From NCBI GenBank assembly GCA_031292235.1, contig JARLHM010000233.1, positions 1-39,397 on the forward strand: a stretch of 39,397 nucleotides of DNA, in the 5' to 3' direction. The DNA is from Syntrophaceae bacterium. Its GTDB lineage: Bacteria > Desulfobacterota > Desulfomonilia > Desulfomonilales > Desulfomonilaceae. This document shows positions 3,934 to 29,385 of this stretch, piece after piece. Numbering within the stretch: the first letter of the stretch is position 1; every line of letters begins with the position of its first letter. The position numbers and the translations under genes were made by a program. The notes beneath the pieces are model-generated. The model had not been told where the DNA came from. It did not search any database and worked only from the letters and a program-made list of their open reading frames with translations.

Positions 3934-5091
3934 TTGAATCAAGACGACTCTCTTCTTAAATTCGAGGTCCCTGAGATCATTTACGGCCTTGGGGCTTTGG
4001 GTAAAATTGGCCAGTGCGCTAAACGCCTCGGTGGAGAGAAGGTGTTCCTTGTCACCGACCCAGGGATCCTTGCCGCAGGCTGGATAGATGAAACCATAAA
4101 ATATCTCGAACAAGAAGACTTAGAATATGTTTTATACGACAATGTGGTCACAAATCCTCGAGATTTTCAGGTGGAACAGGGCGTCCAGCTTTATCTACAA
4201 AAAGGTTGCGATGTCATAGTAGCTGTTGGTGGAGGCAGCCCGATTGACACGGCCAAGGGTGTTGCCATTCTTGCTTCAAACCACGGCTCAATTAGCGAAT
4301 ACGAAGGATGCAACAAAATTGATCAACCTATTCCACCCTTGGTATGCGCGCCCACAACGGCAGGCACTGGAGCTGATGTGACACAGTTCGCTGTCATTAC
4401 CGATACACGAAAAAGAATGAAGATGACCATCCTGAGTAGGGCCATTACACCGGACATTTCAGTTGTTGATCCGAATCTTTTGAAGACCAAACCTCCTGAA
4501 CTGATCGCCGCTACAGGTATGGACACCCTGACGCACGCTTTTGAAGCCTACGTCTCTTCACTATCCTGGTCAATGACAGACCCCCATGCGATTCATGCTG
4601 TTGAGCTTGTTGCGAAACATTTGGTCGATGCTGTGAAGTACAGGAGTCTGACGGCATTGGAGGGCATGTCAATAGCGTGTTTGGAGGCTGGCATCGCATT
4701 CTCCAACGCTATTTTAGGGGCCGTTCACGCCTTGGCCCATCCATTGGGCGGTTTTTATGACATTCATCATGGGGTTGCCAATGCTATACTTCTTCCTGCG
4801 GTTGTTCGCCGGAACATTGAACACTCTATTGAAAAATATGCCAGGCTGGCCATTGCAATGGGGAGTGACACCAGAGGAATGACACAGGAAGAAGCGGCGA
4901 TGAGTGTACTTGGTTGTATCGACCGCCTCACTGATGAGCTTCAATTACCTAAGAAGCTCTCAGAGGTAGGAGTTAGACGGAAAGATATTCCGTCAATGGC
5001 CGATCGAGCGCAGTACGATATTTGCATGTTAACCAATCCGTGTACCTACGAGGTGGACGAAATCAAAAATATATATGCTGAGGCTTGGTGA
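3934..5091 (+). CDS. Iron-containing alcohol dehydrogenase
   Basis: GGGSPIDTAKGVAIL, PTTAGTGADVTQFAVI, HALAHPLGGFYDIHHGVANAILLP motifs; TTG start with upstream AAAGGTGATC. Confidence 0.92.
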   Translation: MNQDDSLLKFEVPEIIYGLGALGKIGQCAKRLGGEKVFLVTDPGILAAGWIDETIKYLEQEDLEYVLYDNVVTNPRDFQVEQGVQLYLQKGCDVIVAVGGGSPIDTAKGVAILASNHGSISEYEGCNKIDQPIPPLVCAPTTAGTGADVTQFAVITDTRKRMKMTILSRAITPDISVVDPNLLKTKPPELIAATGMDTLTHAFEAYVSSLSWSMTDPHAIHAVELVAKHLVDAVKYRSLTALEGMSIACLEAGIAFSNAILGAVHALAHPLGGFYDIHHGVANAILLPAVVRRNIEHSIEKYARLAIAMGSDTRGMTQEEAAMSVLGCIDRLTDELQLPKKLSEVGVRRKDIPSMADRAQYDICMLTNPCTYEVDEIKNIYAEAW

Positions 5092-5100
5092 GGGTAATCC

Positions 5101-6306
5101 ATGGCGAAACAATCCAGTCCGGTCGAATACGATTTTAAAGGAATTGGATTCTCGAAGATCGGTTATTTCAAAGAAGTCCGTTCCAAGATAAAAGAATTGG
5201 AACAGCTAAACATGGAGTTGGCTCGTCGTCACAACAAGCTTGAAGCAATCATTGACAGCATGAACAGCGGTTTGACAATATTGGATAGTGACATGAATAT
5301 AGTGTTCGCAAATCGCCTTCAAATGCTAATGTTCCCGGAGGTTTCCCTGATTGGGGAAAAATGCCATCAGGCTTTTTTCCGAAGAAAAAAGATATGTAGC
5401 AATTGCCCTGCTTGTAAAACGCTCCAAAGCCAGGAGATATTTCGAGGGGAAATACGTATAAAGCATGGCGCCTTTGCTGGGCGTTATTATGAGTGGTCCA
5501 CTTCACCTGTTAAGAGTCCCCTTGGCCGTGTTGATGAGGTGGTTCTTCTTATGAGAGATATTACCAGGCGCAAAGAAGCTGAATTCAAGCTTTTGCAGTC
5601 TGATAGAATGGCTGCCATAGGATTACTCGCCGCCGGCATCGCCCATGAGATCAATAACCCTCTGACTTCAATAGCCGGTTTCTCTGAAGCGTTGCTTAAA
5701 AGGGTCAAAGGCCGGCAAAGGAGCGCTCCAGAAAATCTCGATATAGAATCTCTGCGGGAATATTTAGAAATCATATTTAACGAAGCTTATCGATGTAAAG
5801 ACATCATTCAGAACCTTCTCGAATACAGCCGAAAATCGACAGAAGACAAGGAAATACTCGAAATAGCAAAAACAATAAAGGCGACAGTTATGCTCGTCAG
5901 GAAACACGCAAAGGACCAAAAGATCAAAATTGTATTCAAGAATGTTTTAACGTCTGGTTTCAACCGAATTCTGGGTAACGAATCCCAAATACAACATTTG
6001 CTATTGAATTTGCTCAACCATTCTTTAAAATCGGCTGGGGGAGGTGGTGAACTCACCATACTGGCAAGAAATTTGGGGCATCTAATCGAAGTCCATCTTG
6101 CAATCAACGGATCAGGCGGATCAGATTTGTCGGTAGCTCAACAGAGCGAGATGTCCTGTGCGGCTGCAGCCTCTCCGGTTGTCTCAGAAATGGACCTTTC
6201 AATTTGTTACACAATTATGAAACAACACGACGGAGAGTTGAGATTTGAAGAAAATCAACGGAACCGGTTCAGCTTCACCTTGCGATTTCCGGCTGTCGTG
6301 GCTTAG
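5101..6306 (+). CDS. PAS-domain histidine kinase with atypical ATPase domain
   Basis: PAS with CSNCPAC; HisKA LLAAGIAHEINNPLTSIAGFSEAL; degenerate HATPase region; begins 9 nt after the ADH stop. Confidence 0.85.
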   Translation: MAKQSSPVEYDFKGIGFSKIGYFKEVRSKIKELEQLNMELARRHNKLEAIIDSMNSGLTILDSDMNIVFANRLQMLMFPEVSLIGEKCHQAFFRRKKICSNCPACKTLQSQEIFRGEIRIKHGAFAGRYYEWSTSPVKSPLGRVDEVVLLMRDITRRKEAEFKLLQSDRMAAIGLLAAGIAHEINNPLTSIAGFSEALLKRVKGRQRSAPENLDIESLREYLEIIFNEAYRCKDIIQNLLEYSRKSTEDKEILEIAKTIKATVMLVRKHAKDQKIKIVFKNVLTSGFNRILGNESQIQHLLLNLLNHSLKSAGGGGELTILARNLGHLIEVHLAINGSGGSDLSVAQQSEMSCAAAASPVVSEMDLSICYTIMKQHDGELRFEENQRNRFSFTLRFPAVVA

Positions 6307-6394
6307 CTTGTAAATATAATAGCTGTGAAGATGGCAAGCACCGAAGTCAAGTCAGAACATGCGTGTCTTAGCGATGTCTTACGGGAGCCAACAA

Positions 6395-7732
6395 ATGAAC
6401 CGAGGACGAATTTTAGTAATTGATGATGAAAAAAACATTCGACATTTACTGAAAAACGAACTCAGCGCCGAGGGGTTTGCGGTCTTTACAGCCAAGTCCG
6501 GAGAGGAGGGGCTTAAGCTCCTGACTGACAAGAATTTTGAAATTGTTTTCCTGGATATAAAGCTACCCAAGATGAGCGGTATGGATGTGCTCCGAAGCCT
6601 AAAACTAAAGACTTCTCGGACGGAAGTGATCATGATTACAGGCTATGGAGATATTGGAACAGCCGTTGAATCCATGAAACTCGGGGCCCAGGATTACATT
6701 ACAAAGCCTTTCAAATTAAGTGAACTACTTGCCCTGATCAATCAAATACTGATTCAAAATGGGAGAACCGAAGATATCTCGCCTCAAATGGACGGAAGAG
6801 TAGTTGCGCTTAATTCCGGGTTTGTAGGATGTCCGAGTCCTGCCATGAGAGAAGTCTATGATCTGGTAGAGAGAGTGGGCGCCACGGATGTTACGGTGTT
6901 GATACAGGGCGAAACAGGTGTGGGCAAAGATGTGATCGCTCGGTTGGTGCATAGCTGGAGTCCCAGAAAAAACAAGCCTTTTATTGTTGTAGACTGCGGT
7001 CTTCTAAATCAGAACCTGGCTGAAAGCGAGTTGTACGGCCATGGGAAAGGGGCCTTTTCAGGAGCTTCGGAAATGAAATTGGGACTCGTTGAAAAGAGCC
7101 ACGAAGGCGTCATCTTTTTCGATGAAATCGGAAATCTGGAGCAGGACATGCAAAAAAAGTTTCTTCGATTTCTAGAGACAAAGAAATTCAGGCGCGTTGG
7201 AGAAACCAAGGAACGTGAAGTGGACGCCCGAACAATCCTGGCGACCAATCTGGACTTGAAGGACGCTGCCCAGCGAGGAGTGTTACGCAGAGATCTTTTT
7301 TATCGCATGGATGTGATAACAGTCTATGTGCCGCCTCTGCGGGATCGTAAAGAGGACATTCCTCTCCTCGCGCTACATTTTGCAAATCGCAGCGGTTCAG
7401 GCAAAAAAGCCGATAGAATTTCCCGTGAAGCTATGGCCGCTCTCACGGAATACCCGTGGCCAGGCAACATAAGAGAATTGCGGTCCGTGATCACTAAGGC
7501 AACAATATTTCTTAAGTCGGATGAGATCGGGCTTCAAGATCTTCCACCTCATGTTGTTGGGAGCAGAAAAAACAGGATTTCAGCGCCGCAAAGCTTGGAA
7601 GACCTCGAAAAGGACCATATCATCAGGGTATTGCAACAAACTGGCGGTAACCAGAGTTCAGCGGCTCAAATCCTGGGTATAAACCGGAAGACCCTTTACA
7701 AGAAGATCCACAAGTACGGGCTGTTCAGTTAA
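6395..7732 (+). CDS. Sigma-54-dependent response regulator (NtrC family: REC-AAA+-Fis HTH)
   Basis: REC ILVIDDE...VFLDIKLPKMSG; AAA+ GETGVGKDVIARLVH, GAFSGA loop, FFDEIGNL, PWPGNIRELRSVI; C-term Fis-like NQSSAAQILGINRKTLYKKI. ORF extends to 6359, ATG 6395 has a better RBS. Confidence 0.95.
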   Translation: MNRGRILVIDDEKNIRHLLKNELSAEGFAVFTAKSGEEGLKLLTDKNFEIVFLDIKLPKMSGMDVLRSLKLKTSRTEVIMITGYGDIGTAVESMKLGAQDYITKPFKLSELLALINQILIQNGRTEDISPQMDGRVVALNSGFVGCPSPAMREVYDLVERVGATDVTVLIQGETGVGKDVIARLVHSWSPRKNKPFIVVDCGLLNQNLAESELYGHGKGAFSGASEMKLGLVEKSHEGVIFFDEIGNLEQDMQKKFLRFLETKKFRRVGETKEREVDARTILATNLDLKDAAQRGVLRRDLFYRMDVITVYVPPLRDRKEDIPLLALHFANRSGSGKKADRISREAMAALTEYPWPGNIRELRSVITKATIFLKSDEIGLQDLPPHVVGSRKNRISAPQSLEDLEKDHIIRVLQQTGGNQSSAAQILGINRKTLYKKIHKYGLFS

Positions 7733-8263: not shown

Positions 8264-9073
8264 GTGAAACTCGAGGCTAAAGTAGCCGTGGTCACAGGGG
8301 GAGCCAGAGGTAACGGATTGGCCACGGCAAAACTCCTGGCCGCTGAAGGGGCCGACCTTGTAATCGCGGATATCTGCGAAGATATGCCCACGATCCCATA
8401 TTGCATGTCCACGTTGAAAACAATGGAAGAAGCCGTTGAGACCATAAAGTCAACAGGACGAAATGCAATCGGCGTGAAATGCGACGTGAGGAAAACTTCT
8501 GATGTCGAGGGTATGGTAAAACAGGCCCTGGACAGGTTTGGCAAGGTCGATATCCTTGTGAATAACGCCGGCAACTCATCGATGATGGCTGTCGCCGACA
8601 TGAGTGAACAGGAGTGGGACGAGGTGCTTGATACTCACCTCAAAGGAACGTTTCTCTGCTGTAAGTATGTTGTCCCTCACATGATAAACCAGCATAGCGG
8701 CAAAGTGATCAACATATCATCGGTAGGTGGCATGCGAGGCTTTGGACTTGGAGCCCATTATTGCGCCGCCAAGCACGGTATCATAGGGTTTTCCAAATCC
8801 TTGGCGATGGAGGTGGCTGATCACAACGTGAATGTAAATGTGGTATGTCCCGGCACCGTTTGGACTCCTATGATGCAAGGGATCGCCGCATTTTTCGGCC
8901 TTGAGGATGAAGAAGCCAAAGAGCAGTTTTTGGCTGGTCATCTGTTCAAAGACCGTGAAATAACTCCTGAGGACATTGGAAGGGCAGTGTTGTGGCTGGC
9001 TACCGAAGACACGAGATGTATAACCGGCCAATGTGTAGTTGTTGACGCCGGTTGGACATGTAGGGCCCCATAG
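8264..9073 (+). CDS. Mycofactocin-coupled type SDR family oxidoreductase
   Basis: VVTGGARGNGLATAKLLA; insertion after VIADICEDMPTIPYCMSTLKTMEEAVETIKSTGRNAIGVKCDV typical of mycofactocin SDRs; YCAAKHG; GTG start. Confidence 0.9.
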   Translation: MKLEAKVAVVTGGARGNGLATAKLLAAEGADLVIADICEDMPTIPYCMSTLKTMEEAVETIKSTGRNAIGVKCDVRKTSDVEGMVKQALDRFGKVDILVNNAGNSSMMAVADMSEQEWDEVLDTHLKGTFLCCKYVVPHMINQHSGKVINISSVGGMRGFGLGAHYCAAKHGIIGFSKSLAMEVADHNVNVNVVCPGTVWTPMMQGIAAFFGLEDEEAKEQFLAGHLFKDREITPEDIGRAVLWLATEDTRCITGQCVVVDAGWTCRAP

Positions 9074-9192
9074 GAGCGGTACGACAACGCAAACCAAATT
9101 GTAGCAAAACCATTACGTAATTTTTTGCTTCGTGAAGTTGGACGCATGGCTTGCGTTGCAAAGGCAAAACGCACATGAAGGAGAATTTTGAG

Positions 9193-9324
9193 ATGGAAAA
9201 AGAAATAGTGAGACATGACCTTGAAGCGGAAGTATCCCAGTTGGGATGCGTGGAAGTCCCAGAGATATTGGAAGAGATTACCATTGAAGAAATGGCGGTA
9301 GATGGGATCTGCGGCATCTATTAG
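9193..9324 (+). CDS. mftA: Mycofactocin precursor peptide MftA (43 aa)
   Basis: Translated by hand: MEKEIVRHDLEAEVSQLGCVEVPEILEEITIEEMAVDGICGIY*; C-term DGICGIY matches the MftA tail; RBS AAGGAG; directly upstream of mftB/mftC. Confidence 0.93.
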   Translation: MEKEIVRHDLEAEVSQLGCVEVPEILEEITIEEMAVDGICGIY

Positions 9325-9339
9325 ATTTCTGACAAACGC

Positions 9340-9367
9340 CGGTTCCTGAATATCGCTTCAGGAACCG
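9340..9367. promoter_or_regulatory. Stem-loop between mftA and mftB
   Basis: CGGTTCCTGAA-TATCGC-TTCAGGAACCG, perfect 11-bp stem, 6-nt loop, no T-tract. Confidence 0.75.
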
Positions 9368-9378
9368 AAATCCATGGG

Positions 9379-9666
9379 GTGTTCGCAATGGTTTCGCAAT
9401 CATATATTTTGGCCTCTGGAGTTAATGTACGCCTGGAGAAGTTTGGACTCCTCTTTTATGACTACCGTGGACCACGATTGTATTTTCTGCCATCCAGGGA
9501 TTGGGTCCCGGCAGAGTTCTTTGATGGAAGAAAGAGTGCGGGTGAATTAGTCGAAACGCTATACACCAGGCACGGTTGGTCGAGGGACCTGATTAGTGAG
9601 CAGATTGGCAGAATTCTGCGGATGCTCGAGGTGAGGGGGCTAATCCATGAGCAATCGGTATGTTGA
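9379..9666 (+). CDS. mftB: Mycofactocin biosynthesis chaperone MftB
   Basis: Small protein VNVRLEKFGLLFYDYRGPRLYFLPSRDWVPAEFFDG between mftA and mftC. Confidence 0.88.
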   Translation: MFAMVSQSYILASGVNVRLEKFGLLFYDYRGPRLYFLPSRDWVPAEFFDGRKSAGELVETLYTRHGWSRDLISEQIGRILRMLEVRGLIHEQSVC

Positions 9667-10681
9667 AATGGGGCTTATGGCCCCTGTTAATGTGACATGG
9701 GAGGTCACATATTCCTGCAATCTCTCATGCGTTCATTGCCTTTCCGATTCTGGACCCAAAAGAAACGGTGAACTTACCACCCAACAATGTCGTCAAGTCA
9801 TAGATGAGATGGCAAAGAACCGGGTTTTCCAGTTCAGCATAGGTGGTGGAGAGCCTTTCTCCAGGCCTGATTTCCTCGATCTGATGGAATATGCTAATGA
9901 GAAGGGAATTGTAACCTGTATAAGCACCAATGGGACACTCATCAACGACGAAGTCGCCAAACGTCTGGACAGGAATCTAGTTTATATCCAGGTCAGTCTT
10001 GACGGCGCCACCCCGGAATCTAACGACGCCATCCGTGGTTCAGGGAGTTTCCACCGCGCTGTTCACGCCCTGGAATGCCTTGCCAAGAGAGAAATCGAAG
10101 TTAGCATAAATACCGTGCTCACAAGACTCAGCTTTTCCGGGCTGGATGACCTGGCATCGCTGGCAAGATCTTTAGGCGCCAAATTTAGGGTTTCGAGATT
10201 CAGACCCTCGGGCCGAGGTAAAAAGTCTTGGCGGGACCTCAATGTTTCCAAAAGCCAGATGCTTGAATTCTCGAATTGGCTTAGCGACCACAAGAACGTG
10301 TCTACGGGTGATTCATTCTTCTCGGTTACTCAAGAAGACCGAAAATCACTTGGTCTAAACATGTGTGGGGCTTGCAAGATGACCTGCTGTGTGTCCCCTA
10401 AAGGAGAAATATATCCCTGCGCATTCCTGCAGGAAAATGAATTCCTCGCCGGAAGGCTACCGGAAGAGGCTTTTGCTCCGATATGGAAAAATTCACCGGT
10501 TTTTGAATCATTTCGGGAGCTGGAAATTAAGTCATGTGAAAGTTGTGACAGATTTGACATGTGTCATGGTGGCTGCCCAGCAATAGCATATCACACACAA
10601 AAAAGGTTGGGGGTTCCTGACCCTGGTTGCCTCGTCAACTGTGTCTCGTTAAGATCTATCGGTTTAGCGGCAGGGACATGA
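9647..10681 (+). CDS. mftC: Mycofactocin radical SAM maturase MftC
   Basis: VTWEVTYSCNLSCVHCLSDSGP CxxxCxxC motif; C-terminal SPASM cysteines CGACKMTCC...CESCDRFDMCHGGCP. Confidence 0.95.
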   Translation: MSNRYVEMGLMAPVNVTWEVTYSCNLSCVHCLSDSGPKRNGELTTQQCRQVIDEMAKNRVFQFSIGGGEPFSRPDFLDLMEYANEKGIVTCISTNGTLINDEVAKRLDRNLVYIQVSLDGATPESNDAIRGSGSFHRAVHALECLAKREIEVSINTVLTRLSFSGLDDLASLARSLGAKFRVSRFRPSGRGKKSWRDLNVSKSQMLEFSNWLSDHKNVSTGDSFFSVTQEDRKSLGLNMCGACKMTCCVSPKGEIYPCAFLQENEFLAGRLPEEAFAPIWKNSPVFESFRELEIKSCESCDRFDMCHGGCPAIAYHTQKRLGVPDPGCLVNCVSLRSIGLAAGT

Positions 10682-12198
10682 CAAGGCCAGACATGAGGGG
10701 ACTTTACTGTCTAGCCTCGGGAATTCGTCTGATTCCGCAAAACGGGTATGGAGTCATCCTCAAGGATGATCCTTTTCGGGCTTTTCGAGTGAACCTCGGA
10801 GCGCTTCGCCTCCTCGAAAAGTGTAGAGCCGGCTTCTCCCCTGAAAGCGAAGCTCAATCCTGGAGTCCCGATTCTATAAAGGCGGCGCTAGCTGTTTTCG
10901 ACCGGTTTGTTGAAACCGGAGTTTTGGAATGGAAGCCTTCGGAAAGCGGCGTATTACCTTTCGTCAGCATTGTTATCCCGGTTTATAATAGAGCTGATGA
11001 TATTCGTTCATGCCTCGAGTCGTTGTTGGCGCTCGATTATCCAACCTCGCAATTTGAAATTATTGTAGTTGACGACAAATCCAGTGACAAAACCGCTAAC
11101 GTTGTCAAAAGCTATGGGGTCAAACTCATAGTTCAACTCAAAAATCTGGGGCAGTCGGCGGCAAGAAACGCAGGTGTCCTCGCCTCAAAAGGAGAAATTA
11201 TAGCCTTTATCGACAGTGACTGTATAGCGGGACCCTGCTGGTTGAGTGAACTGGTTCCATATTTTGAGGATCCACGTAACGCACTTGTTGGAGGCTACGT
11301 AGATTCATACTACAGGGAAACCTGGCTGGACAGATATGAAGAGGCGAACTCGCCGTTGAATATGGGCCAGAAATTCATAATGGGATTTGGACCTCAATCA
11401 GATTTCTATGTCCCTACATGTAACATGCTGGTCAGAAGAGGCGCCTATCTCAAGGTCCGGGGACTTGACGAGACAATGCGCGTTGGAGAGGACGTCGACC
11501 TTTGTTGGAGACTCAAGGAAAATGGATTTCGTCTAGTATATGTTCCAAAAGGCAGGATTGAGCACAAGCATAGAAATCGTTTTCTCGAAACTTTTGGGCG
11601 GCGTTTCGACTATGGTGCCTCTGAACCGGTCCTTTACAGCAAGCATAAGGATGTTGAAAAACGTTTTCCGTGGCAACCGGCTTGCATGGCCCTCCTTTTT
11701 ACATGCCTTTTCGGGTTGCTTTGGAGAAATATTATAGCGTTACCTTTGGCGACAGCAATTCTTGTTGCGGATTCCTTTTTAAAAAAAGCCAGGTACGAAA
11801 AACAGATCGGTATGCCGCTGCCATTTAAATACATTTTGAAAGCTACTGCTGAAAAGCACTTTAATCTTATATTTTATCTGACTCATCATGTGATTCGATA
11901 TTATCTTCTATTAATAACTGTGGTGGTTGTGATGTGTCCGTCTCTATTGCCCGCCGCCGTAACCGCCATTGTGTTTACTTCGCTGGTGGAGTTCATCCGC
12001 AAGAAACCCAGACTACTCTTTCCCGTATTCTTTTTCTATTTCGTAATTGAGCAGGCTTACTATCAAACCGGTGTTTTCGTTGGCTGCCTGAAGCGGAAGA
12101 GTTTCAGGCCATATAAATTGAATTTTATGCGGACACGTAAGGTGACAACTTTGGCTGGAAGTAGTTCCAGGACCGGCTCACTTTACGAAAAGGCGTGA
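10678..12198 (+). CDS. mftF: Mycofactocin glycosyltransferase MftF (GT2 family)
   Basis: FVSIVIPVYNRADDIRSCLESLLALDYP GT2 motif; C-terminal TM segments; ATGA overlap with mftC. Confidence 0.88.
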   Translation: MTRPDMRGLYCLASGIRLIPQNGYGVILKDDPFRAFRVNLGALRLLEKCRAGFSPESEAQSWSPDSIKAALAVFDRFVETGVLEWKPSESGVLPFVSIVIPVYNRADDIRSCLESLLALDYPTSQFEIIVVDDKSSDKTANVVKSYGVKLIVQLKNLGQSAARNAGVLASKGEIIAFIDSDCIAGPCWLSELVPYFEDPRNALVGGYVDSYYRETWLDRYEEANSPLNMGQKFIMGFGPQSDFYVPTCNMLVRRGAYLKVRGLDETMRVGEDVDLCWRLKENGFRLVYVPKGRIEHKHRNRFLETFGRRFDYGASEPVLYSKHKDVEKRFPWQPACMALLFTCLFGLLWRNIIALPLATAILVADSFLKKARYEKQIGMPLPFKYILKATAEKHFNLIFYLTHHVIRYYLLLITVVVVMCPSLLPAAVTAIVFTSLVEFIRKKPRLLFPVFFFYFVIEQAYYQTGVFVGCLKRKSFRPYKLNFMRTRKVTTLAGSSSRTGSLYEKA

Positions 12199-12309: not shown

Positions 12310-13128
12310 ATGGATGGAAATCTCTTGAAAAGCCTACTCGAAAATGTTCAAAACGGTAGCGTGGACTTGGATTCGGCAATGAAGCTGTTGAGGAAGTTGC
12401 CATTTGACGATCTGGGGTACGCCAAGGTTGATTATCACCGTTGCGTCCGCCAGGGAGTTCCGGAGGTAATATTTTGTCAGGGAAAGACTATTGCCCAGAT
12501 TCAGGGCATAGCCACACGCCTGGCCCAAAATTTTTGTAATGTTCTGGCGTCAAGGGCTGATTCGGAAGTTTTCAGGGCAATCAAAGAAGTTGTAAGCTCA
12601 TGCCATTATAACGAGTTGGCAAGGATGGTTGTGATTAATCCTAAAGAGGTAGAGAAGATCGGTAACATAGCTATTGTAAGCGCCGGAACTTCGGATATCC
12701 CCGTTGCGGAGGAATCCGCCATTACCGCAGAAACTCTTGGTAACAGAGTCAACAGAATTTACGACGTTGGGGTAGCTGGAATTCACCGTCTCCTGAACTG
12801 CTGCGAGGACCTTTTTGAAGCCAATGTCGTAGTTGTTGTCGCCGGCATGGAAGGCGCCCTCGCCAGCGTTGTAGGTGGCCTCGTTGCCAGTCCAGTGATC
12901 GCTGTTCCCACTAGCGTAGGCTACGGAGCAAGTTTTGGGGGTGTGGCTGCTCTGTTGAGCATGCTAAACTGTTGCGCTTCAGGAGTGTCTGTGGTCAACA
13001 TAGATAATGGTTTTGGCGCAGGTTTCCAGGCTGGCCTGATCAATAAACTGGCTGTCAAGCGCGATGAAAATGAATCCGTGCACAAGCCTGTAAGTAGCGG
13101 GTGCGGACTTCATTTGGCCAAAATGTGA
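12310..13128 (+). CDS. larB: LarB, nickel pincer cofactor biosynthesis protein
   Basis: DLGYAKVDYHRCVRQGVPEVIFCQGKT; IVSAGTSDIPVAEESAITAE; PVIAVPTSVGYGASFGG motifs. Confidence 0.93.
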   Translation: MDGNLLKSLLENVQNGSVDLDSAMKLLRKLPFDDLGYAKVDYHRCVRQGVPEVIFCQGKTIAQIQGIATRLAQNFCNVLASRADSEVFRAIKEVVSSCHYNELARMVVINPKEVEKIGNIAIVSAGTSDIPVAEESAITAETLGNRVNRIYDVGVAGIHRLLNCCEDLFEANVVVVVAGMEGALASVVGGLVASPVIAVPTSVGYGASFGGVAALLSMLNCCASGVSVVNIDNGFGAGFQAGLINKLAVKRDENESVHKPVSSGCGLHLAKM

Positions 13129-13174: not shown

Positions 13175-14374
13175 ATGAAGGTCGCCTATTTTGATTGTTT
13201 CTCCGGCGCAAGCGGGGACATGATAATTGGGTCGCTTTTGGACGCAGGGCTTCCATTGGAACTTCTCAGAAGTGAACTTTCGAAACTGTCTCTTTCCCAC
13301 TATGAAATCGGAGTTAGAAAGGCAATAAAAAGAGGCCTAGCGGGAAGTCAGGTGATCATAAATATTGACGAAAGACACCATCATGACCATCATAGGCATC
13401 TGTATGATATAATTAGCATTGTTAAAAACAGTGACCTAGCCGAATCAGCTAAGGAGCAAGTCATCAAGATATTCTCCCGATTGGCTGAAGCGGAGGCCAA
13501 GGTTCACCAAACAACGGTGGACAAGATACACTTTCACGAAGTGGGCGCCATGGACGCCATAATTGACGTTACGGGGGCAGTCATAGGTCTTGAGGCGCTT
13601 GGCATAGAAAGGGTGTACTGTTCTCCTCTACATCTTGGCTCTGGGACCATAGAATGCGCCCATGGCGTCTTACCCGTTCCGGCCCCTGCTACGGCTGAAC
13701 TGATAAAAGGCAAACCGGTTTATTCGACGGGGGTTAAAGGCGAGCTACTAACCCCCACAGGAGCCGCCATCCTAACTACCCTCGCTTACGAGTTCGGGCC
13801 CATGCCAGCCATAATTCCCCAAAAGTTGGGATATGGGGCCGGCACGTCCGACCCCCCGATTCCCAACCTGCTGAGAGTGATTATTGGAGACTTGACTGAC
13901 GGTTTTGGAGACTATGAATTTGAGAGAGTCGCTGTGCTAGAAACAAATATTGATGATATGAATCCCCAGATCTACGACTACCTAATTCAGAAAATGTTAA
14001 AAGAGGGAGCGCTGGACGTGTTTCTAGCGCCGATTCAAATGAAAAAAAACCGTCCTGGCACAATGATGACTGTGATTTGTCAATTAGGCAAGTTGGAGGA
14101 ATTTTCCAATCTTATTCTACGTGAAACCACAACATTGGGGCTTCGATGGAGAATTGACAATCGGATCAAGGCCTTGAGATCATTTGAAGATATCAAAACA
14201 AACTATGGTCCGGTGACTGTTAAGATCGCGAAAGTGGGCGGCAAGATAACAAATTACTCAGTCGAGTACGACGACTGCAAGCGCTTGGCAATAGAAAACC
14301 AAGTTCCACTCAAGGAAGTTATGGATCACGCTAAGATTCAGGCTGCTAAGATCCTGAATACAAAACATGAATGA
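13175..14374 (+). CDS. larC: LarC, nickel insertion protein
   Basis: MKVAYFDCFSGASGDMIIGSLLDAGL; His-rich ERHHHDHHRHLYDI; HFHEVGAMDAIIDVTGA. Confidence 0.95.
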   Translation: MKVAYFDCFSGASGDMIIGSLLDAGLPLELLRSELSKLSLSHYEIGVRKAIKRGLAGSQVIINIDERHHHDHHRHLYDIISIVKNSDLAESAKEQVIKIFSRLAEAEAKVHQTTVDKIHFHEVGAMDAIIDVTGAVIGLEALGIERVYCSPLHLGSGTIECAHGVLPVPAPATAELIKGKPVYSTGVKGELLTPTGAAILTTLAYEFGPMPAIIPQKLGYGAGTSDPPIPNLLRVIIGDLTDGFGDYEFERVAVLETNIDDMNPQIYDYLIQKMLKEGALDVFLAPIQMKKNRPGTMMTVICQLGKLEEFSNLILRETTTLGLRWRIDNRIKALRSFEDIKTNYGPVTVKIAKVGGKITNYSVEYDDCKRLAIENQVPLKEVMDHAKIQAAKILNTKHE

Positions 14375-14528
14375 GATGATGTGATAATTTAAGTTCCCAT
14401 TTTTGTTTGTTCGTAGCGTCTAGTTATAAATCCCGTGTTCGCACACAATGGGATGTCTATCTTTTTTGGGTTTTGAAATAGCGTCTGATCTCTGTATAGC
14501 TCAAAACCCTGATTTTACGGTGTACCTG

Positions 14529-15689
14529 ATGTTCAAAGCCGCGACTGTAAGCACCGGCGCCACATTTTCCAGAAAATTGGGAAGGGAGCTAGGTGAATCC
14601 CTGATCCAAGAATTGGGCTCCGCTCCGATAGCCTGTTGGCTCTTTTGCTCTGTAAAAAGTGGCATGAGCGATCTGCTTCGAGGCATATGTGAGGCTGTTG
14701 GATCTAGCGCATTAGTCGGTTGCACTACTGATGGAGAAATTTCGTCCGAGGGATACAGCGTAGGTTCCGCCGTGTTAGGTGGGATAGTCTCAGACAAAAT
14801 CCAAGCTCAAGTGGTTTCTGTACAGGGCCTTGGTGAAGCTTCCGAGAAATCGGGGATAGAACTCGCTCGGCTTTTTGACCCCTATGTTCGCCACGTGCAG
14901 ATTTTCACGGATGGCCTCACGGAAAACGGCTGCGCAATTTTGCGAGGTCTCAGGTCTGAACTGGGAGACGAAGTCCCGATTTCAGGCGGCGCAGCCGGGG
15001 ACGGTGGAAAATTCCGGCAGACGTTCCAGTTTATTGGGCCTAAAGTCCTCTCTGACGCAATTGTCGGAATAGGATTCAGTGGGGAATTCAAGCTGGGGGC
15101 AGGTGTCAGGAGCGGGTGGTCCGCCATTGGTACGGCCAAGAAGGTAACCAGGGCTACCGGTAACGTGGTGTACGAACTCAATGGCCAGCCCGCTCTTGAA
15201 GTTTATGAACGCTTTCTCGGAAGGCATGCCGCCGATCTTCCTTCAGTTGGAGTAGAGTACCCTTTCGGTTTTCTAGACGCTACCGGTGAATGCGGAGATG
15301 TAGACCAGTACATCCTTCGGGCAACGATGTCCGTAAATCGTGACCAGGGATCCATAGTCTTTGCCGGCGAGATTCCTGAAGGGACTACTGTTCGTCTTAC
15401 TTGTGGTGACTATGGGTCAATCATTGAAGCGGCAGAGGAGGCTGCGACTCAAGCCCTTAAAGAACTTGGAACAGGTTCGCCATCTATGATCTTCTTTTAC
15501 TCTTGCATGGCGCGCAAGATCGTTCTCGGTAGACGTACCCATGAGGAAGTAGATCGGATTCGATCCGTATTCGGCCCCAAAGTCCCAATGATCGGGTTTT
15601 ATTCATACGGAGAATACTGTAGGCAGAGATGTGGCGGGCCCAGTCTTTTCCACAACGAAACGGCCACCGTTACAGTTATCGGGAACTGA
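14529..15689 (+). CDS. FIST domain-containing sensory protein
   Basis: GCTTDGEISSEGYSVGSAVLGGI; C-terminal FIST_C-like IFFYSCMARKIVLGRRTHEEVDRI...GFYSYGEYC; ORF may start at 14448. Confidence 0.85.
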   Translation: MFKAATVSTGATFSRKLGRELGESLIQELGSAPIACWLFCSVKSGMSDLLRGICEAVGSSALVGCTTDGEISSEGYSVGSAVLGGIVSDKIQAQVVSVQGLGEASEKSGIELARLFDPYVRHVQIFTDGLTENGCAILRGLRSELGDEVPISGGAAGDGGKFRQTFQFIGPKVLSDAIVGIGFSGEFKLGAGVRSGWSAIGTAKKVTRATGNVVYELNGQPALEVYERFLGRHAADLPSVGVEYPFGFLDATGECGDVDQYILRATMSVNRDQGSIVFAGEIPEGTTVRLTCGDYGSIIEAAEEAATQALKELGTGSPSMIFFYSCMARKIVLGRRTHEEVDRIRSVFGPKVPMIGFYSYGEYCRQRCGGPSLFHNETATVTVIGN

Positions 15690-15691
15690 CC

Positions 15692-17710
15692 ATGACGGAC
15701 ATGAAAAGCAGTGAACAGAAACTCAGCGAACTCGAAGAACTCCTGGACGTGGCAGAGAGAAAGTCCGACATCCTGACTAATTTGCTCAAAGAGGCAAACG
15801 CGGAGTTCGAAAGAGCGCTCAGTCTGGTCATGAAAACCGAGAGCAATTTTAGGGCAGTCTTTGAGAATGCGCCGGAAGCGATTTTAATAATTGACGCTCA
15901 CACACGTCGTATCCTTGACTGCAATCCGTTTGTCTGCGGATGGCTAGGATATTCGCGAGAAGAACTCCTTGAGAAGAGATTGGATGATCTAGTGGTTGGG
16001 GCTCCAAGCGATATTGAGGCCAACATCCAAAAAGCCATTGAAAATGGGCTAGTTAGAGTCATGGAGCGCCGGTACATGACAAAAGCTGGTTCCGTGGTGG
16101 ATGCGGAGGTTACCGGCACTGTACTTGAATACGAAGGAAGGGATTGCGTTGCAATTCTGGTTAGAGACGTCACGGAACGCAAAAAACTCGAGACCATTCT
16201 TAGATACAAAGAATTATTTGAAAATGTCAGCGATCCGGTTTTTATCAACGACTTTGACGGAAAATTTCTAGAAGTCAACGATGGGGCTTGTCGTTTGTTT
16301 AACTATTCCAGGAAACAACTCCTTTCAATGCGTCTCAATGAACTCGTAAAGCGGGAGCAGTTAAAAATACTATCCCAAAGCGCAAAAAAAATTAAAAAGG
16401 GCGAAACGGCGCAATTTGAGATCGAGTTGATTGCCAAAAAGGGTGAGCCGATTCTATTTGAACTTCACTCACGATCTATATCATTCATGGGCAAGTCGGC
16501 TGTTTTGAGCGTAGCACGTGACTTGAGCGTAAGAAAGAAACTTGAAGGCGCCCTTATCAAGACTGAACGTCTCACGGCAGTAGGGGAGATGGCCAGCGGG
16601 GTTGCACATAATTTCAACAACTTACTTCAAATGGTTATGGGATTTGCACAAGCGGCTCTAGCCGATTTGGAAGCCGGCCGAATGACGAAATGCCAAAAAT
16701 CTATAAGCGCCATCTTGCATTCTGCTGAGCGTGGCGCTGACATTGTTAGGCGTATAAAGGACTTTACAGACCACAGGTCTGACAAAACTGACGAATTCAA
16801 CCAATTTGAATTGTCCGAGATAGTTAAGGAAGCGGTAGATTTTACAATACCGCTTTGGAAGGGATTACCGGTTTTTAGAAAATACAGGTTAACCTGTGAG
16901 CATAAGGAAAAATGTTTTGTACTGGGTCGTCCATCCGAAATCTACGAAGTGCTGGTCAACCTCATCAAAAATGCCATAGAGGCCATGCCAAATGGGGGAT
17001 CACTGAGCATCCGAAACTGGAAACAAAACTCAAAGGTTTTCCTAACCGTCTCTGACACGGGACATGGGATTCCTAGAGAAAATGTTCAACGTATCTTCGA
17101 TCCTTTTTTTACAACCAAGGGCTGGAAGAGCAGCGGGTTGGGACTGTCTTCGAGTTATGGTCTTATTAAGAAGAATCGCGGTGAAATCCTTGTAGAAAGC
17201 AACATTGGAAAAGGGACGACATTTACTGTGGTTTTAATGGGCGCAAAGCAAACAGGGAAACATCTTAAGTTTAAGGAGAATGCCACGGCTTCAGGCCAAA
17301 GTATGAGATTTCTGGTGATCGATGACGAAATCAATCTTTTGACTGCAATGCGCATGTTTTTTGAAAACTCAGAGGTGGAAATAATTCCCGCAGTATCCGG
17401 TCGGGAAGGCATAGAGGCTTTTATGAAAGGAAACGTCGATGTAATCCTTTGTGACCTTGGCATGGATGATATGGACGGGTGGGAGGTAGGAGAAAGGATA
17501 AAAGGCTACTGCGAATCAGAGGGAATTCCAAAGCCGCCGTTCATCATTTATACCGGCTGGGACCAGAATTTCGATCAGAGGGACCTTTCAAAAAAAGGTG
17601 TGGATCTGGTTGTTACCAAACCCGTACCTTACGATAAACTACTTCGTATAGCGCAAGAAGCCGTACATAAGACCAAAACAGAAGTTTCCCAGGCATCCCA
17701 ACGCAGTTGA
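15692..17710 (+). CDS. PAS-PAS hybrid histidine kinase with C-terminal receiver
   Basis: HisKA VGEMASGVAHNFNNLLQMVMGFAQAA; HATPase VNLIKNAIEAM / DTGHGIP / SSGLGLSSSYG; REC FLVIDDEINLLTAM...VILCDLGMDDMDGWEV. Confidence 0.93.
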   Translation: MTDMKSSEQKLSELEELLDVAERKSDILTNLLKEANAEFERALSLVMKTESNFRAVFENAPEAILIIDAHTRRILDCNPFVCGWLGYSREELLEKRLDDLVVGAPSDIEANIQKAIENGLVRVMERRYMTKAGSVVDAEVTGTVLEYEGRDCVAILVRDVTERKKLETILRYKELFENVSDPVFINDFDGKFLEVNDGACRLFNYSRKQLLSMRLNELVKREQLKILSQSAKKIKKGETAQFEIELIAKKGEPILFELHSRSISFMGKSAVLSVARDLSVRKKLEGALIKTERLTAVGEMASGVAHNFNNLLQMVMGFAQAALADLEAGRMTKCQKSISAILHSAERGADIVRRIKDFTDHRSDKTDEFNQFELSEIVKEAVDFTIPLWKGLPVFRKYRLTCEHKEKCFVLGRPSEIYEVLVNLIKNAIEAMPNGGSLSIRNWKQNSKVFLTVSDTGHGIPRENVQRIFDPFFTTKGWKSSGLGLSSSYGLIKKNRGEILVESNIGKGTTFTVVLMGAKQTGKHLKFKENATASGQSMRFLVIDDEINLLTAMRMFFENSEVEIIPAVSGREGIEAFMKGNVDVILCDLGMDDMDGWEVGERIKGYCESEGIPKPPFIIYTGWDQNFDQRDLSKKGVDLVVTKPVPYDKLLRIAQEAVHKTKTEVSQASQRS

Positions 17711-18568: not shown

Positions 18569-20464
18569 TTACTCTCTCTCAAGCACTTCGTCGGCTACGT
18601 CTTTCAGACCTAGTTCTTCTAGCTTTTCCCTCGTCGGGATACCGGTTTTCTTGTCCCAGCCTCGTAACTCATAATATTCGTTTTTCATTTCCTCGAATTT
18701 CTCGCGGTCGAGGACTTGCCCCTCGTATTTTCCCTTTTTGAGAGGTTGTTCGAAAAACTTCTTTGGAAGGGAATCATCCTCTCTTCTTAGTCCCTGACGC
18801 ACGTCGAACATCCGCTCGAGGTTCCTGATTCGCTCTGACACCTTGAGCATTCGATCGACTGGCCAGTCCTTTCCAGTGACCACATTGAAGAAGCGAGTGG
18901 CCATTTCAATATCCTGGAAGATAAAAAGCCCGTAGAGCCATTTGCATATACCGAGATTATCGGCGACACGTTCCATGTGCTCCGAAATAATGGTGGCGAG
19001 GGCTTTGCCTTTGTATTCTATAGGAATTGCCGCTTCTTCGCTTCCGAACTGTTCTTTAGCGACTTTTTGGAACCATTCAGGCGCATGATGCCAATCCACT
19101 TCCAGTAATGCGTTGCGTAACGGCAATGGGTCCCCTCGATGACCAACCGCTTGACCAAGCGCGGACCCGTGGTAAGCACGGAATTCGTATGCGTGAGGAG
19201 CCAATCCCTTTACTTGGTCCACTCGTTCCAGCGCTTCGGGACCGATGCTATTGGCGAACGATTTTTGTCCCTCAGCGAGAAGGTCTCCGTAGCCTTCTCT
19301 GTTTCCAATTTTGAGGATCGTGGAGAGGATTGCCTCCTTATTGCCTCGTTCCATAGGTATCCCGTCGGTATCCTTAGCAGTAATGACGCCCTCGTGATAG
19401 AGTTCCATGAGCAGCCCTATTGAAGCAGACGTCTCGGTACAATCTATACCCAGTTTGTTAACTAATAGTGTGGCTTCCCAGAAAACGTCCATATCGAGGT
19501 TCCAGATTCCGCCTGTGAATCCGCTAAATGGCTCACACGACGTGACGCCTTTTCCCAGTTTGGGAACGGAGATGAAATTCATGCAGCGATTAGGGCAGCA
19601 AAAACATCCCACATTTTTGGTCTGGTATTTCTCAATGTATGCTGGTCCTTGATAATTCTGAATAATCTCTTCCCAGTTCACGTCTTCGAAGTAACCCACT
19701 GGGAAGAAGCTGAAATCGTACATCATGGTCATTGAACGCGCGACACCCCAGTTGGAAAGCTCCTGGTAGGCTGGATGTTCTCGCATTTCCGTCACGACCT
19801 TAATAGAGAGGTCCAGCAGTTCCTGAGGCCTGGCGACCTTCACCGCTCCTCTTGCTCGTACTGCGACTGCCTTCAGGTTCTTGGACCCCATGACAGCGCC
19901 CATGCCTGTTCTGCCAGCCGCATCACCGGTCTCGGTAATGATGCAGGCAAAGCGGACGAGTTTTTCACCACCCGGACCAATGCATACGATTTTTATTTCG
20001 GGGTCTCCGAGTTCGTCCTGAATCGCCTTTTGGGTTTCATGAGTGTCCTTTCCCCAGAGATGCTCTGCGCTGAGAATCTCGACCTTTCCCTCGTTGATCA
20101 ATATGTAACAAGGTTTGTCGGCTTTCCCAACGATTACCACATGATCATATCCGGCGTATTTTAGTTCCGGCCCCCAATAGGCCCCAAAGTTAGATTTTGC
20201 CCGCAGGTTACTCATCGGGGACAGGGCAGTCACGTCGACCCGACCGGAACCCGGCATGGCCGTACCTGTAAGGGGTCCCGTGCTAAAGATGAGAGGATTC
20301 CCAGGATCCAAGGGGTCAGTTCCAGGGACATAATTGTCGTAGATCAACCTAACACCGATGCCCCGGCCACCAATATAATCTTCGATGTAGGCCTCTGTGG
20401 GTTCAGTTGTGAAAGCGCCGGAGCCGAGATCAATTTTAAGTATCTTGCCTGCCCATCCGTACAT
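18569..20464 (-). CDS. Aldehyde:ferredoxin oxidoreductase family (tungstopterin) enzyme
   Basis: MYGWAGKILKIDLGSG..., GRGIGVRLIYDN, GRTGMGAVMGSKNLKAVAVRG-like, CFCCPNRC (CxxCxxxC), NLGICKW. Confidence 0.95.
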   Translation of the reverse strand: MYGWAGKILKIDLGSGAFTTEPTEAYIEDYIGGRGIGVRLIYDNYVPGTDPLDPGNPLIFSTGPLTGTAMPGSGRVDVTALSPMSNLRAKSNFGAYWGPELKYAGYDHVVIVGKADKPCYILINEGKVEILSAEHLWGKDTHETQKAIQDELGDPEIKIVCIGPGGEKLVRFACIITETGDAAGRTGMGAVMGSKNLKAVAVRARGAVKVARPQELLDLSIKVVTEMREHPAYQELSNWGVARSMTMMYDFSFFPVGYFEDVNWEEIIQNYQGPAYIEKYQTKNVGCFCCPNRCMNFISVPKLGKGVTSCEPFSGFTGGIWNLDMDVFWEATLLVNKLGIDCTETSASIGLLMELYHEGVITAKDTDGIPMERGNKEAILSTILKIGNREGYGDLLAEGQKSFANSIGPEALERVDQVKGLAPHAYEFRAYHGSALGQAVGHRGDPLPLRNALLEVDWHHAPEWFQKVAKEQFGSEEAAIPIEYKGKALATIISEHMERVADNLGICKWLYGLFIFQDIEMATRFFNVVTGKDWPVDRMLKVSERIRNLERMFDVRQGLRREDDSLPKKFFEQPLKKGKYEGQVLDREKFEEMKNEYYELRGWDKKTGIPTREKLEELGLKDVADEVLERE

Positions 20465-20465
20465 G

Positions 20466-20954
20466 TTATTCCTCCCCCAGCGCTGTCCGCACCAGCGATG
20501 GAATTCGGTCCGCATTTTCAAGCAATTTTAGGTAAGCTTCCTTTGACATCTCCTCATAAGAAAGCGCCCCTGTAGGGCAAATCTTTACGCATGTTGGATC
20601 TCCATCGCAGAGGTCGCACTTCAAGACATGGCCAGTGTCTTGATCCACGAATGTGGCGCCGAAGGGACATGCAAATACGCAACTCAGGCAACCAATACAT
20701 CGAAAAGGATCAACCTCCATCGCCCCAGTGGAGAAGTTTCGGAACGTGGCGCGTTTGGGGCAAACCATTTCACAGGCTGGTTTTTCACATCTCATGCAAT
20801 TTATGGGGACATAGATCCCCTCCTGCTCCCACTTGACCACATGTATGCGGCCCTTGGAAGGACTACAGTATCCTTCATGTTTTAGGGAGCAGTAGTTTTC
20901 ACAAGCTCTGCAGCCCGAACATTTTTGAGCGTCAACAATTAAAGTCTTTATCAT
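20466..20954 (-). CDS. 4Fe-4S ferredoxin-type electron transfer subunit (DmsB/HycB-like)
   Basis: CSGCRACENYCSLKH, CMRCEKPACEMVCP, CIGCLSCVFACP, CDLCDGDPTCVKICP. Confidence 0.93.
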   Translation of the reverse strand: MIKTLIVDAQKCSGCRACENYCSLKHEGYCSPSKGRIHVVKWEQEGIYVPINCMRCEKPACEMVCPKRATFRNFSTGAMEVDPFRCIGCLSCVFACPFGATFVDQDTGHVLKCDLCDGDPTCVKICPTGALSYEEMSKEAYLKLLENADRIPSLVRTALGEE

Positions 20955-21031
20955 ATGTTGATCCCTCCTGTTTTATGGAGATCAGAGGGTTGTTTCATGC
21001 TAGCGCCAAGGTGGCGTCTTAGACTTACAAC

Positions 21032-22342
21032 TTAAAAAGGAAGCAATGCCTCTTCTATTCTTACCTTGGTAAGCTTAGGATCATGGTTCCAGTCAGCAGA
21101 CTCTTCCACGACCTTCTTCGCTATCAGGCACTTCAGGGCGTTATTCTGCGTCGCCGAATCGAGAATCTCTATTTCTTCTACTATGCCGCGACTATCAGTT
21201 TTGTAGCGGTGGGCAATTAATCCATCAGGAGACTCGATGGCCGCAAATCCTTCTCCTTTAATCTCAGTGGGAATGTTACGAATTACAGGGCCTGTAAGGC
21301 TTTCCTGCCGGTAAAGATCCACCATTCTCCCAGCAGCTTGGAAGATTTCCACTTGTAGGGCCCGATACGCGTTAGCTATGCCGAATGTTGGCGTACTGCC
21401 AAATGTGTCCTCAAAAGATTTCCAATTCTCCCCCGAGAGGGGGAACCCTATTTCTTTTTGGGATTTGAGTCTTGCCAGTGGTCCCACGAAATAGATACTG
21501 GTAACTTTCTCAGAGTCTAACGAATTCCATCCTTTTTCTTTCAGGAATGCAAAAGGTTTGTAGGTCCAGGGCTCTTTCTGAAAGCCTATTTTCTCAAAAA
21601 TCTGGTCCGCAGGGAATTGGCAAGTCAGTTCACCAGAGGAATCAGATACTTGTACTTCGTTGCTATTCCCGGGGATTGTTAGAGATAGAATAGGTTGAAT
21701 ATCAAAATCATAAAGCAGTTCCTCAGGTTTGAGATCGGCAAGGACCCTGGCCAGTTTAATAGAGAAACTTAAGCAACTTCGGCCTATCTCGGAAAGACGA
21801 TCATAATATGGCTGTTTCAGGAAACGGCTCACTCCGCCTGGTACCGCTGAAATAGGATGGTCCGCTCTCCCTCCCAGGATTTTTGTGGCCTCCTGCGCCA
21901 GCGCCACATGCCGCATGATCTGATCAATCAGGTCACGTGGAACAGAATGCTGATCAATGTTCCTTTGACTCAAGCTGAAATCTTCAAACGGGTTTGAATG
22001 TGAACTCAAGAAAAAATATAGTTTCCTCATGTGACGGACGAAAAATAGGGTTTGGAGTAACGCATCCCTCATATTTACCGCTAGGGGCGGAGGAGTCACG
22101 TTGAACAGCGAATCGAGGGCCATAGCAGAAACCAGATGATGCGCAGGAGACAGAATTGTCAGGATCCGAGGGAGTTCTTCAACCGGTCTACCAATGCACA
22201 TCCTAGAAAGATTCAGTTTGGTCATCACCTGGAGAAAGGTCTTTGGGGGCCCGCCGTTTTCGATTACCATCACGCGGGCGAGTTCTTCCATCCATCTCAG
22301 AGGCTCAAGAATTGTCCGGCGCATGCTTGGCTTCCTCCGCAT
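21032..22342 (-). CDS. NiFe-hydrogenase large-subunit-like protein lacking the metal-ligating cysteines
   Basis: CIGRPVEELPRILTILSPAHHLVSAMALDSLF aligns with the GRP..PRIVPRICGICPVSHHLA..KALD block; C-term VRIEEALLPF* where DPCxxC is expected; overlaps/follows the small-subunit-like ORF. Start could be 22324. Confidence 0.8.
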   Translation of the reverse strand: MRRKPSMRRTILEPLRWMEELARVMVIENGGPPKTFLQVMTKLNLSRMCIGRPVEELPRILTILSPAHHLVSAMALDSLFNVTPPPLAVNMRDALLQTLFFVRHMRKLYFFLSSHSNPFEDFSLSQRNIDQHSVPRDLIDQIMRHVALAQEATKILGGRADHPISAVPGGVSRFLKQPYYDRLSEIGRSCLSFSIKLARVLADLKPEELLYDFDIQPILSLTIPGNSNEVQVSDSSGELTCQFPADQIFEKIGFQKEPWTYKPFAFLKEKGWNSLDSEKVTSIYFVGPLARLKSQKEIGFPLSGENWKSFEDTFGSTPTFGIANAYRALQVEIFQAAGRMVDLYRQESLTGPVIRNIPTEIKGEGFAAIESPDGLIAHRYKTDSRGIVEEIEILDSATQNNALKCLIAKKVVEESADWNHDPKLTKVRIEEALLPF

Positions 22343-23306
22343 TAGGCGTCCTTAGCGCACACTGAGTGGCAAGAGTATATCTGTAGAATGTTCCAGCCAA
22401 ATCAACAAAAGTCTTTGTCAGTCCTTCAATTTCTGATGCTTCCGTGGAGTCGAATGTGGAGCTTACAGCGGACACCATCTTTGCGCCTGGATCAAAAACC
22501 GCTTCGGCTTTTCCAAAACAACCTCGGCATGCGGCGCCAACGGCAGTGCACAAACCACCGCATCCTTCACGGGTTGCAAGCCCCTGGCATAGGATGCCTT
22601 GTTCGAGGAGGCACCGACCGCTGTCAGGATCTATCTCATAAGGCCGATAGAAACCACGGAATTTCTTTTCTTCCTTGATTCTGGAACAACTCGCGCATAC
22701 CGCCTTTTCACCGGCAAAAACACTGCCTCGAGGTGGAACAATACCCGAAGTTATGGACTCTGCGAGCGCCATTGGCAGTCTGGATGCGGTGAAAGAAATC
22801 CTGGTAGGAGAATCTCCCATATAAACCAGTGATTGGATTGCGGCCCAAAGAAAATCTCGAGTAGGTGGACAACCTGGGACGAAGTAGTCGACATCTACAA
22901 TATGTTCGAGGGCAAAAACACGTGATTCCAATTTGGGGAGTAAGAACTCATTTCCCTCATCCAAATGTTCGGGTCGATTTTCAGGTGTTTCTGGATGAAG
23001 GTCGGTGAGACTAGGAAGACCTCCAAAAGCTGCGCAGGCCCCACAAGCTACCATCAATTTGGAATTGGAACGCAACCTGACGGCCGCTATCCGATCGGCC
23101 TCAGTCCTTATTGCTCCTGCGAAGAAACAGACGTCGACAGGTCCCTGCTCATTCAGACCATCCCATTGAGAACCCAGCACATAGGGCCAGAAGACTATAT
23201 CTGCGCTTCTGGTCAAGGATCCCAGATCATAGTGGATGTCCAGGATCGTGTTTTCGCAGGCGGCGCAACCGGTTGCGGTGTAAACGGCCAACTTCTTTTT
23301 GGGCAA
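22305..23306 (-). CDS. F420-non-reducing hydrogenase small-subunit-like (MvhG-type) Fe-S protein
   Basis: ATGCAACENTILDIH, VACGACAAFGGLPSL, VPGCPPTRDFLWAAI motifs and C-terminal cysteines. Confidence 0.88.
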   Translation of the reverse strand: MPKKKLAVYTATGCAACENTILDIHYDLGSLTRSADIVFWPYVLGSQWDGLNEQGPVDVCFFAGAIRTEADRIAAVRLRSNSKLMVACGACAAFGGLPSLTDLHPETPENRPEHLDEGNEFLLPKLESRVFALEHIVDVDYFVPGCPPTRDFLWAAIQSLVYMGDSPTRISFTASRLPMALAESITSGIVPPRGSVFAGEKAVCASCSRIKEEKKFRGFYRPYEIDPDSGRCLLEQGILCQGLATREGCGGLCTAVGAACRGCFGKAEAVFDPGAKMVSAVSSTFDSTEASEIEGLTKTFVDLAGTFYRYTLATQCALRTPNAEEAKHAPDNS

Positions 23307-23307
23307 C

Positions 23308-23742
23308 TCAGGCGACTCCCTTCAAAGGTTTTTGTGAACTAGGCATGCAAGGCCCCAAATTGCGGACATCTTCTATCATCTCATTCATTAGTTTCGCATA
23401 AAGCGGTGATTCGGATGCGGCTATCCATTCCAATCGGAAACGCTTTTCCTCAACGCCAAGCTCGGAAAGCAGTTTTCTTAGAAGAAACGAACGCCGTAGG
23501 GCCTTGATGTTCCCTGCCAGGTAATGACAGTCTCCGGGATGGCAACCGGCTACAAGAACTCCATCAGCTCCGGAAGCAAATGCTTTGATTACGTAACTTG
23601 GATCTACCATGCCGGAACAGAATACACGGATAACACGAACATTCGGCTTTTGAACGAAACGAGACACCCCTGCCGCATCAGCGGCTACGTAAGAACACCA
23701 ATTACAGAGGAACGCTATTATTTTCGGTTCAAATCTAGTCAT
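23308..23742 (-). CDS. Hydrogenase iron-sulfur subunit (MvhD/BamF-like)
   Basis: KIIAFLCNWCSYVAADAAGVSR...VRVIRVFCSGMVDPSYVIKAFASGADGVLVAGCHPGDCHYLAGN. Confidence 0.95.
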   Translation of the reverse strand: MTRFEPKIIAFLCNWCSYVAADAAGVSRFVQKPNVRVIRVFCSGMVDPSYVIKAFASGADGVLVAGCHPGDCHYLAGNIKALRRSFLLRKLLSELGVEEKRFRLEWIAASESPLYAKLMNEMIEDVRNLGPCMPSSQKPLKGVA

Positions 23743-27967: not shown

Positions 27968-27970
27968 GGA

Positions 27971-28540: not shown

Positions 28541-28548
28541 AAATTTTC

Positions 28549-29340: not shown

Positions 29341-29385
29341 GCCTTTAATAATGTTTCAAAAGAGGAGCCCCACCGAGAATGAAGA

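Follow-up and report, generated by a model that had tools for sequence, protein, structure and literature searches.

The canonical mycobacterial mftABCDEF locus (TIGR03969, TIGR03967, TIGR03962, TIGR03966, TIGR03964 and TIGR03965, respectively) encodes a precursor peptide, MftA, whose Cys-Gly-Val-Tyr C-terminus was called invariant in 2011 (PMC3023750), and a maturase, MftC, of known chemistry (PMC8728441). In M. smegmatis, another peptidase can take the place of MftE, but cells without MftD no longer form the redox-active products (PMC7491314). SDRs with an insertion over the NAD site hold non-exchangeable NAD and require an external redox partner (PMC5264612). Regarding the Lar system, approximately 15% of genomes have been reported to carry larB, larE and larC without larA, the client being not known, and users of the nickel-pincer nucleotide other than LarA are expected (PMC11796402).

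The locus described here shares with the canonical mycobacterial one the mftA-mftB-mftC-mftF genes and a coupled nicotinoprotein-type SDR; it differs in having Ile for Val in the core, in lacking MftD and MftE, in its linkage to lar genes and in its regulators. As a whole, we consider it reasonably probable that the locus directs the synthesis of an Ile-type (ethyl-methyl) mycofactocin homologue for anaerobic alcohol oxidation, to which a nickel-pincer cofactor is linked. In a literature search restricted to papers available without subscription, we found no paper joining mycofactocin with the nickel pincer or lactate racemase, nor with Desulfobacterota. The mft-lar linkage was thus not found described in the searchable papers, the notes of the NF040489 model lying outside that search, and its priority is not proven.

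The mftA gene and its neighbourhood

The window, i.e., the whole stretch of 39,397 nucleotides that was analysed, is a contig of an 83% complete MAG; therefore, single absences in its genome are weak evidence. On the + strand, at 9193..9324, we identified mftA, encoding a variant-type mycofactocin precursor of 43 aa with the core Ile-Tyr, MEKEIVRHDLEAEVSQLGCVEVPEILEEITIEEMAVDGICGIY, followed by a stop codon. The ORF is 57 aa long from TTG 9151 and 43 aa long from ATG 9193; based on the relatives and on an RBS (AAGGAG, 9178-9183) located 9 bases 5′ of the ATG, we favour the latter start. The first-pass annotation had proposed the same gene, with a variant tail, DGICGIY; our translation is identical to its peptide and ends in Cys-Gly-Ile-Tyr, the RBS is good, and the peptide matches NF040489, "variant-type mycofactocin precursor", with 53 bits (cut-off 30, E = 3e-14) over all 23 model positions. 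The expected match to the MftA HMM was therefore obtained with the variant-type model but not with the canonical one, TIGR03969, whose score of 22.1 bits lies below its cut-off of 25; Pfam gave no match to the peptide. Since NF040489 already covers mftA, the gene belongs to an existing family and not to a new one, and since its tail departs from Cys-Gly-Val-Tyr, it is a variant and not a canonical member.

The mftB gene (9379..9666, + strand), encoding the RiPP recognition chaperone (TIGR03967, 47 bits, cut-off 33), starts at GTG 9379 or ATG 9388. It is overlapped by 20 bases by mftC (9647..10681, + strand), the gene of the radical SAM/SPASM maturase (TIGR03962, 388 bits, cut-off 265). The earlier description of mftA as lying immediately upstream of MftB/MftC is correct, given the distance of 55-64 bases to the mftB start and the mftB-mftC overlap. 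The glycosyltransferase gene mftF (10678..12198, + strand; TIGR03965, 349 bits, cut-off 280) follows through an ATGA overlap with the mftC stop. The family model, the position, and the neighbouring MftB, MftC and MftF, all over cut-off, support the proposed identity as MftA, and the mftA product is very probably the precursor of an MftC-modified peptide. Three features go beyond the first-pass annotation: the effect of the penultimate Ile on the predicted product, the missing MftD and MftE, and the lar genes that follow. These are larB (12310..13128, + strand), for the pyridinium carboxylase of nickel-pincer nucleotide biosynthesis (NF033503, 288 bits, cut-off 175), found at the same place in relatives, and larC (13175..14374, + strand), for the nickel insertase of that nucleotide (TIGR00299, 227 bits, cut-off 90; NF052512), whose linkage is also conserved.

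Upstream of mftA, at 8264..9073 (+ strand), lies a mycofactocin-coupled SDR oxidoreductase gene (NF040490, 517 bits, cut-off 385). Its product, in addition to the model match, has an insertion over the NAD site that aligns with that of carveol dehydrogenase 3OEC, and it is predicted to be a nicotinoprotein. Scans for regulatory signals gave little: the sigma-54 promoter pattern TGGCAC-N5-TTGC, with one mismatch allowed, had four matches, no more than expected by chance and none 5′ of the SDR gene or mftA; sigma-70 sites were no commoner in the window than in shuffles; and terminators did not exceed shuffles, with a single weak terminator-like site, within mftF, in the mftA-larC interval of the + strand.

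The Ile-Tyr branch and the missing MftD and MftE

Matches to NF040489 were found in 18 of the 396 genomes of the phylum sample and in 5 of the 42 of the class, and in the phylum their tails read AVDGICGIY, as in the window's group, or AIDGICGVY. When 85,462 species genomes were scanned with the pattern DG[I/M]CGIY-stop, we obtained 29 stretches, 25 with mft or SDR neighbours, all from Desulfobacterota-type records, and four (L064, L077, L086 and L088) without mft neighbours, which were rejected as mftA and taken as chance. The resulting Ile-Tyr set comprises 26 genomes, the window and G087 included, and an mft gene and/or the SDR gene adjoins the peptide in 26/26 loci. The MftC proteins of 24 Ile-Tyr loci form one side of a branch with support 94/97. 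The reported invariance of the core dipeptide is thus contradicted. Some Ile-Tyr clusters, among them L043, L065, L074, L079, L084 and L085, are missing mftF; at least six loci without mftF in the cluster retain larEBC. Three mftA genes each are present in G087 (L041, L055 and L056), which carries both Ile-Tyr and Val-Tyr clusters, and in G316 (L048, L051 and L052); no mftB or mftC was found near the tails L056 and L051.

No MftE over cut-off was found in any of the 22 genomes searched, and the five genomes of the window's family gave no creatininase/MftE match of any score. MftD was absent from 21 of the 22, the sole exception being G408 (650 bits, cut-off 471). In this genome, which alone has a true MftD, a LarA homologue is encoded on the same contig, approximately 25 kb from mftA (G408:C22; L045, L109:14962-16200). 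The Val-Tyr clusters of Desulfobacterota have mftA-B-C and mftF in common with the Ile-Tyr clusters; G062, G257 and G335 also share the SDR and larEBC, and others have an aldehyde oxidoreductase. Between mftC and mftF, however, Val-Tyr clusters carry mycofact_OYE_2 (TIGR03997) and ETF-like genes, which may stand in for MftD; these genes were not found in Ile-Tyr clusters (L041 and L043, for example, lack OYE_2). No OYE_2 over cut-off was detected anywhere in the genomes of the window's family; in G325 it is located approximately 21 kb from the Ile-Tyr cluster, and in G087 within the separate Val-Tyr cluster. These absences raise the question of an MftD-independent route to the redox centre.

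Linkage to the nickel-pincer genes

Among the 22 Ile-Tyr clusters that could be assessed, i.e., those whose DNA reaches far enough, 21 have larE, larB and/or larC directly downstream of mftC or mftF (the window, G001, G011, G016, G087, G179, whose cluster continues on contig C150, G325 and 14 further records); four more were undecidable. In the exception, L067, no lar gene lies less than 5 kb away. LarE was found in 22/22 genomes; the mft clusters of G001, G087 and the window do not include larE. The window's genome thus has all of LarB, LarC and LarE, the last on G000:C73 (232 bits). This LarE (L098:8177-8953) and that of G001:C35 (L101:8774-9499) are divergent, approximately 38% identical, and lie away from larB/larC. 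As compared with the Lar system, LarB and LarC are over cut-off and LarE occurs in many clusters, but the clusters lack LarA; none is encoded in the window.

Among the Val-Tyr loci, those of G062, G257, G335 and G316 carry larEBC after mftF, and an NF040490-type SDR gene precedes mftA in the first three of these; nine other Val-Tyr loci have neither. With an SDR counted if it passed the NF040490 cut-off or had an identity of 64% or more, the SDR-lar co-occurrence was 24/1/0/9 (Fisher 2e-7, with related genomes treated as independent). No other cluster member follows the presence of lar as closely as the SDR gene upstream of mftA. The SDR of G122 was discarded as a counter-example, as it scores below the NF040490 cut-off. 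A tree of LarE places the Val-Tyr-linked proteins with the unlinked ones of their own genomes (100/100), apart from Ile-Tyr-linked LarE; judging from this tree, mft loci have probably acquired lar genes on two or more separate occasions. A functional tie between the mycofactocin-type cluster and the nickel-pincer cofactor seems to us somewhat favoured, and this is the least certain part of the proposal. The conserved linkage provides concrete candidates, in genomes without LarA, for the long-missing user of the nickel pincer other than LarA.

Predicted product and role

The genes, their families, the conserved linkage, the absences and the single clade were computed, and we infer every chemical step and which way the electrons flow. 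The mftA product would be the precursor of an Ile-type mycofactocin, presented by MftB to MftC, which would decarboxylate the last Tyr and join it to the penultimate Ile; our search returned no published work on MftC acting on Ile. The predicted product is a pyrrolidinone with an ethyl and a methyl group at C4 in place of the two methyls of mycofactocin, i.e., the 4-ethyl-4-methyl homologue of AHDP, 14.016 Da heavier. That an Ile-derived homologue of mycofactocin is formed is, in our judgement, likely, and a specific mass is predicted for it. Some host peptidase would free the core, MftF would add sugars to it, and the redox-active keto-amide would be made, or replaced, by some enzyme that is neither MftD nor OYE_2. 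This carrier may re-oxidise the NAD held by the adjacent SDR, and possibly also the iron-containing alcohol dehydrogenase (Fe-ADH), in anaerobic alcohol oxidation. LarB and LarC, with LarE encoded in or outside the cluster, would make the nickel-pincer nucleotide for a step involving the SDR branch. More tentatively, the cofactor made by the mft-linked LarE/LarB/LarC might serve a protein other than LarA, likeliest the NF040490 SDR or the missing MftD step, placing the peptide-derived carrier and the nickel-pincer cofactor in one hydride-transfer chain.

Other explanations have to be weighed against this proposal. The shortness of the ORF and the low score of the canonical MftA model could suggest a chance or decayed frame. 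This idea has a negligible probability and is refuted by the NF040489 match, by the tail DGxCG[V/I]Y-stop, present once in the window's six frames and in 0 of 200 shuffles, by the kept position in 26 genomes, and by pN values of 0.05-0.26 that are far under the pS values of 0.47-1.15 (last 24 codons, eight homologues); strong purifying selection acts on mftA. It is also conceivable that no free cofactor is produced, the modified core, without MftE and MftD, staying as the amine or on the peptide, as in a peptide-bound carrier or another RiPP. The genomes without MftE over cut-off (22/22) and without MftD (21/22) and the clusters devoid of mftF agree with this. We nevertheless hold it to be improbable: MftF, which in mycobacteria glycosylates the free core, is present in most clusters, mycobacteria tolerate the loss of MftE (PMC7491314), and the SDR and Fe-ADH neighbours suit a redox carrier.

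Alternatively, the product could be an ordinary mycofactocin save for one methylene, and the lar genes bystanders that provide the nickel-pincer nucleotide for LarA racemases encoded elsewhere. LarA homologues are indeed encoded elsewhere in most of the other genomes, and in the window's own, contigs C40 and C242 encode proteins with a LarA domain; as its examined LarA and LarE loci lack adjoining larB/larC, the mft-linked larBC may be its only set. However, no LarA domain was found in G001 (94% complete) or G016 (99%), both of which carry mft-clustered lar genes, and G325 has just a 28.6-bit partial match. In G062 and G335 a further lar set lies apart from mft, the linkage is maintained across several families, and the presence of lar follows that of the SDR. 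Taken together, we regard bystander lar genes as possible but doubtful.

A redox carrier for alcohol oxidation fits the rest of the neighbourhood, all on the + strand. Its upstream end is an ErcA-like Fe-ADH gene (3934..5091; PF00465), kept in relatives, which scores 482 bits against NF041833 ErcA, under the cut-off of 550. It is followed by a PAS sensor histidine kinase gene (5101..6306), kept beside it in relatives, and by a conserved sigma-54-type response regulator gene (NtrC/AtoC-like, 6359..7732). Downstream of larC lies a gene for a NosP-like FIST-domain sensor (14448..15689; NF041558, 88 bits, below the cut-off of 450; homologues PF08495/PF10442), which in relatives is kept after larC or after an aldehyde ferredoxin oxidoreductase (AOR)-like gene; a hybrid PAS histidine kinase/response regulator gene (15629..17710) follows it, in relatives too. 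The ErcA/ErcS/NosP-type alcohol regulation of Pseudomonas likewise brings an Fe-ADH together with PAS kinases and a FIST protein in a single neighbourhood, although here all are below the equivalog cut-offs and mycofactocin genes take the place of PQQ genes. Together with the AOR that follows larC in relatives, these genes fit an alcohol-to-acid oxidation, which the adjacent FIST, kinase and NtrC-type regulators may control, and they offer a model of the genes with which Desulfobacterota may oxidise alcohols anaerobically.

In most mft clusters of Desulfobacterota, the gene after larC or mftF belongs to the AOR-like family, whose members are 55-79% identical (e.g., L006:7294-9027, L041:2977-4716 and L080:142-1881, also L044-L047, L119 and L120). 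The family is absent from the window, whose own AOR (18572-20521) was rejected as its counterpart at only 24% identity. Between the AOR and FIST genes of L006, a 213-aa frame (9145-9783) has no Pfam or NCBIfam match. On the minus strand of the window, a reading of the ORFs at 18569-31407 points to a divergent gene block encoding an AOR-like protein, a ferredoxin, and hydrogenase-like, heterodisulfide-reductase-like and formate-dehydrogenase-like proteins.
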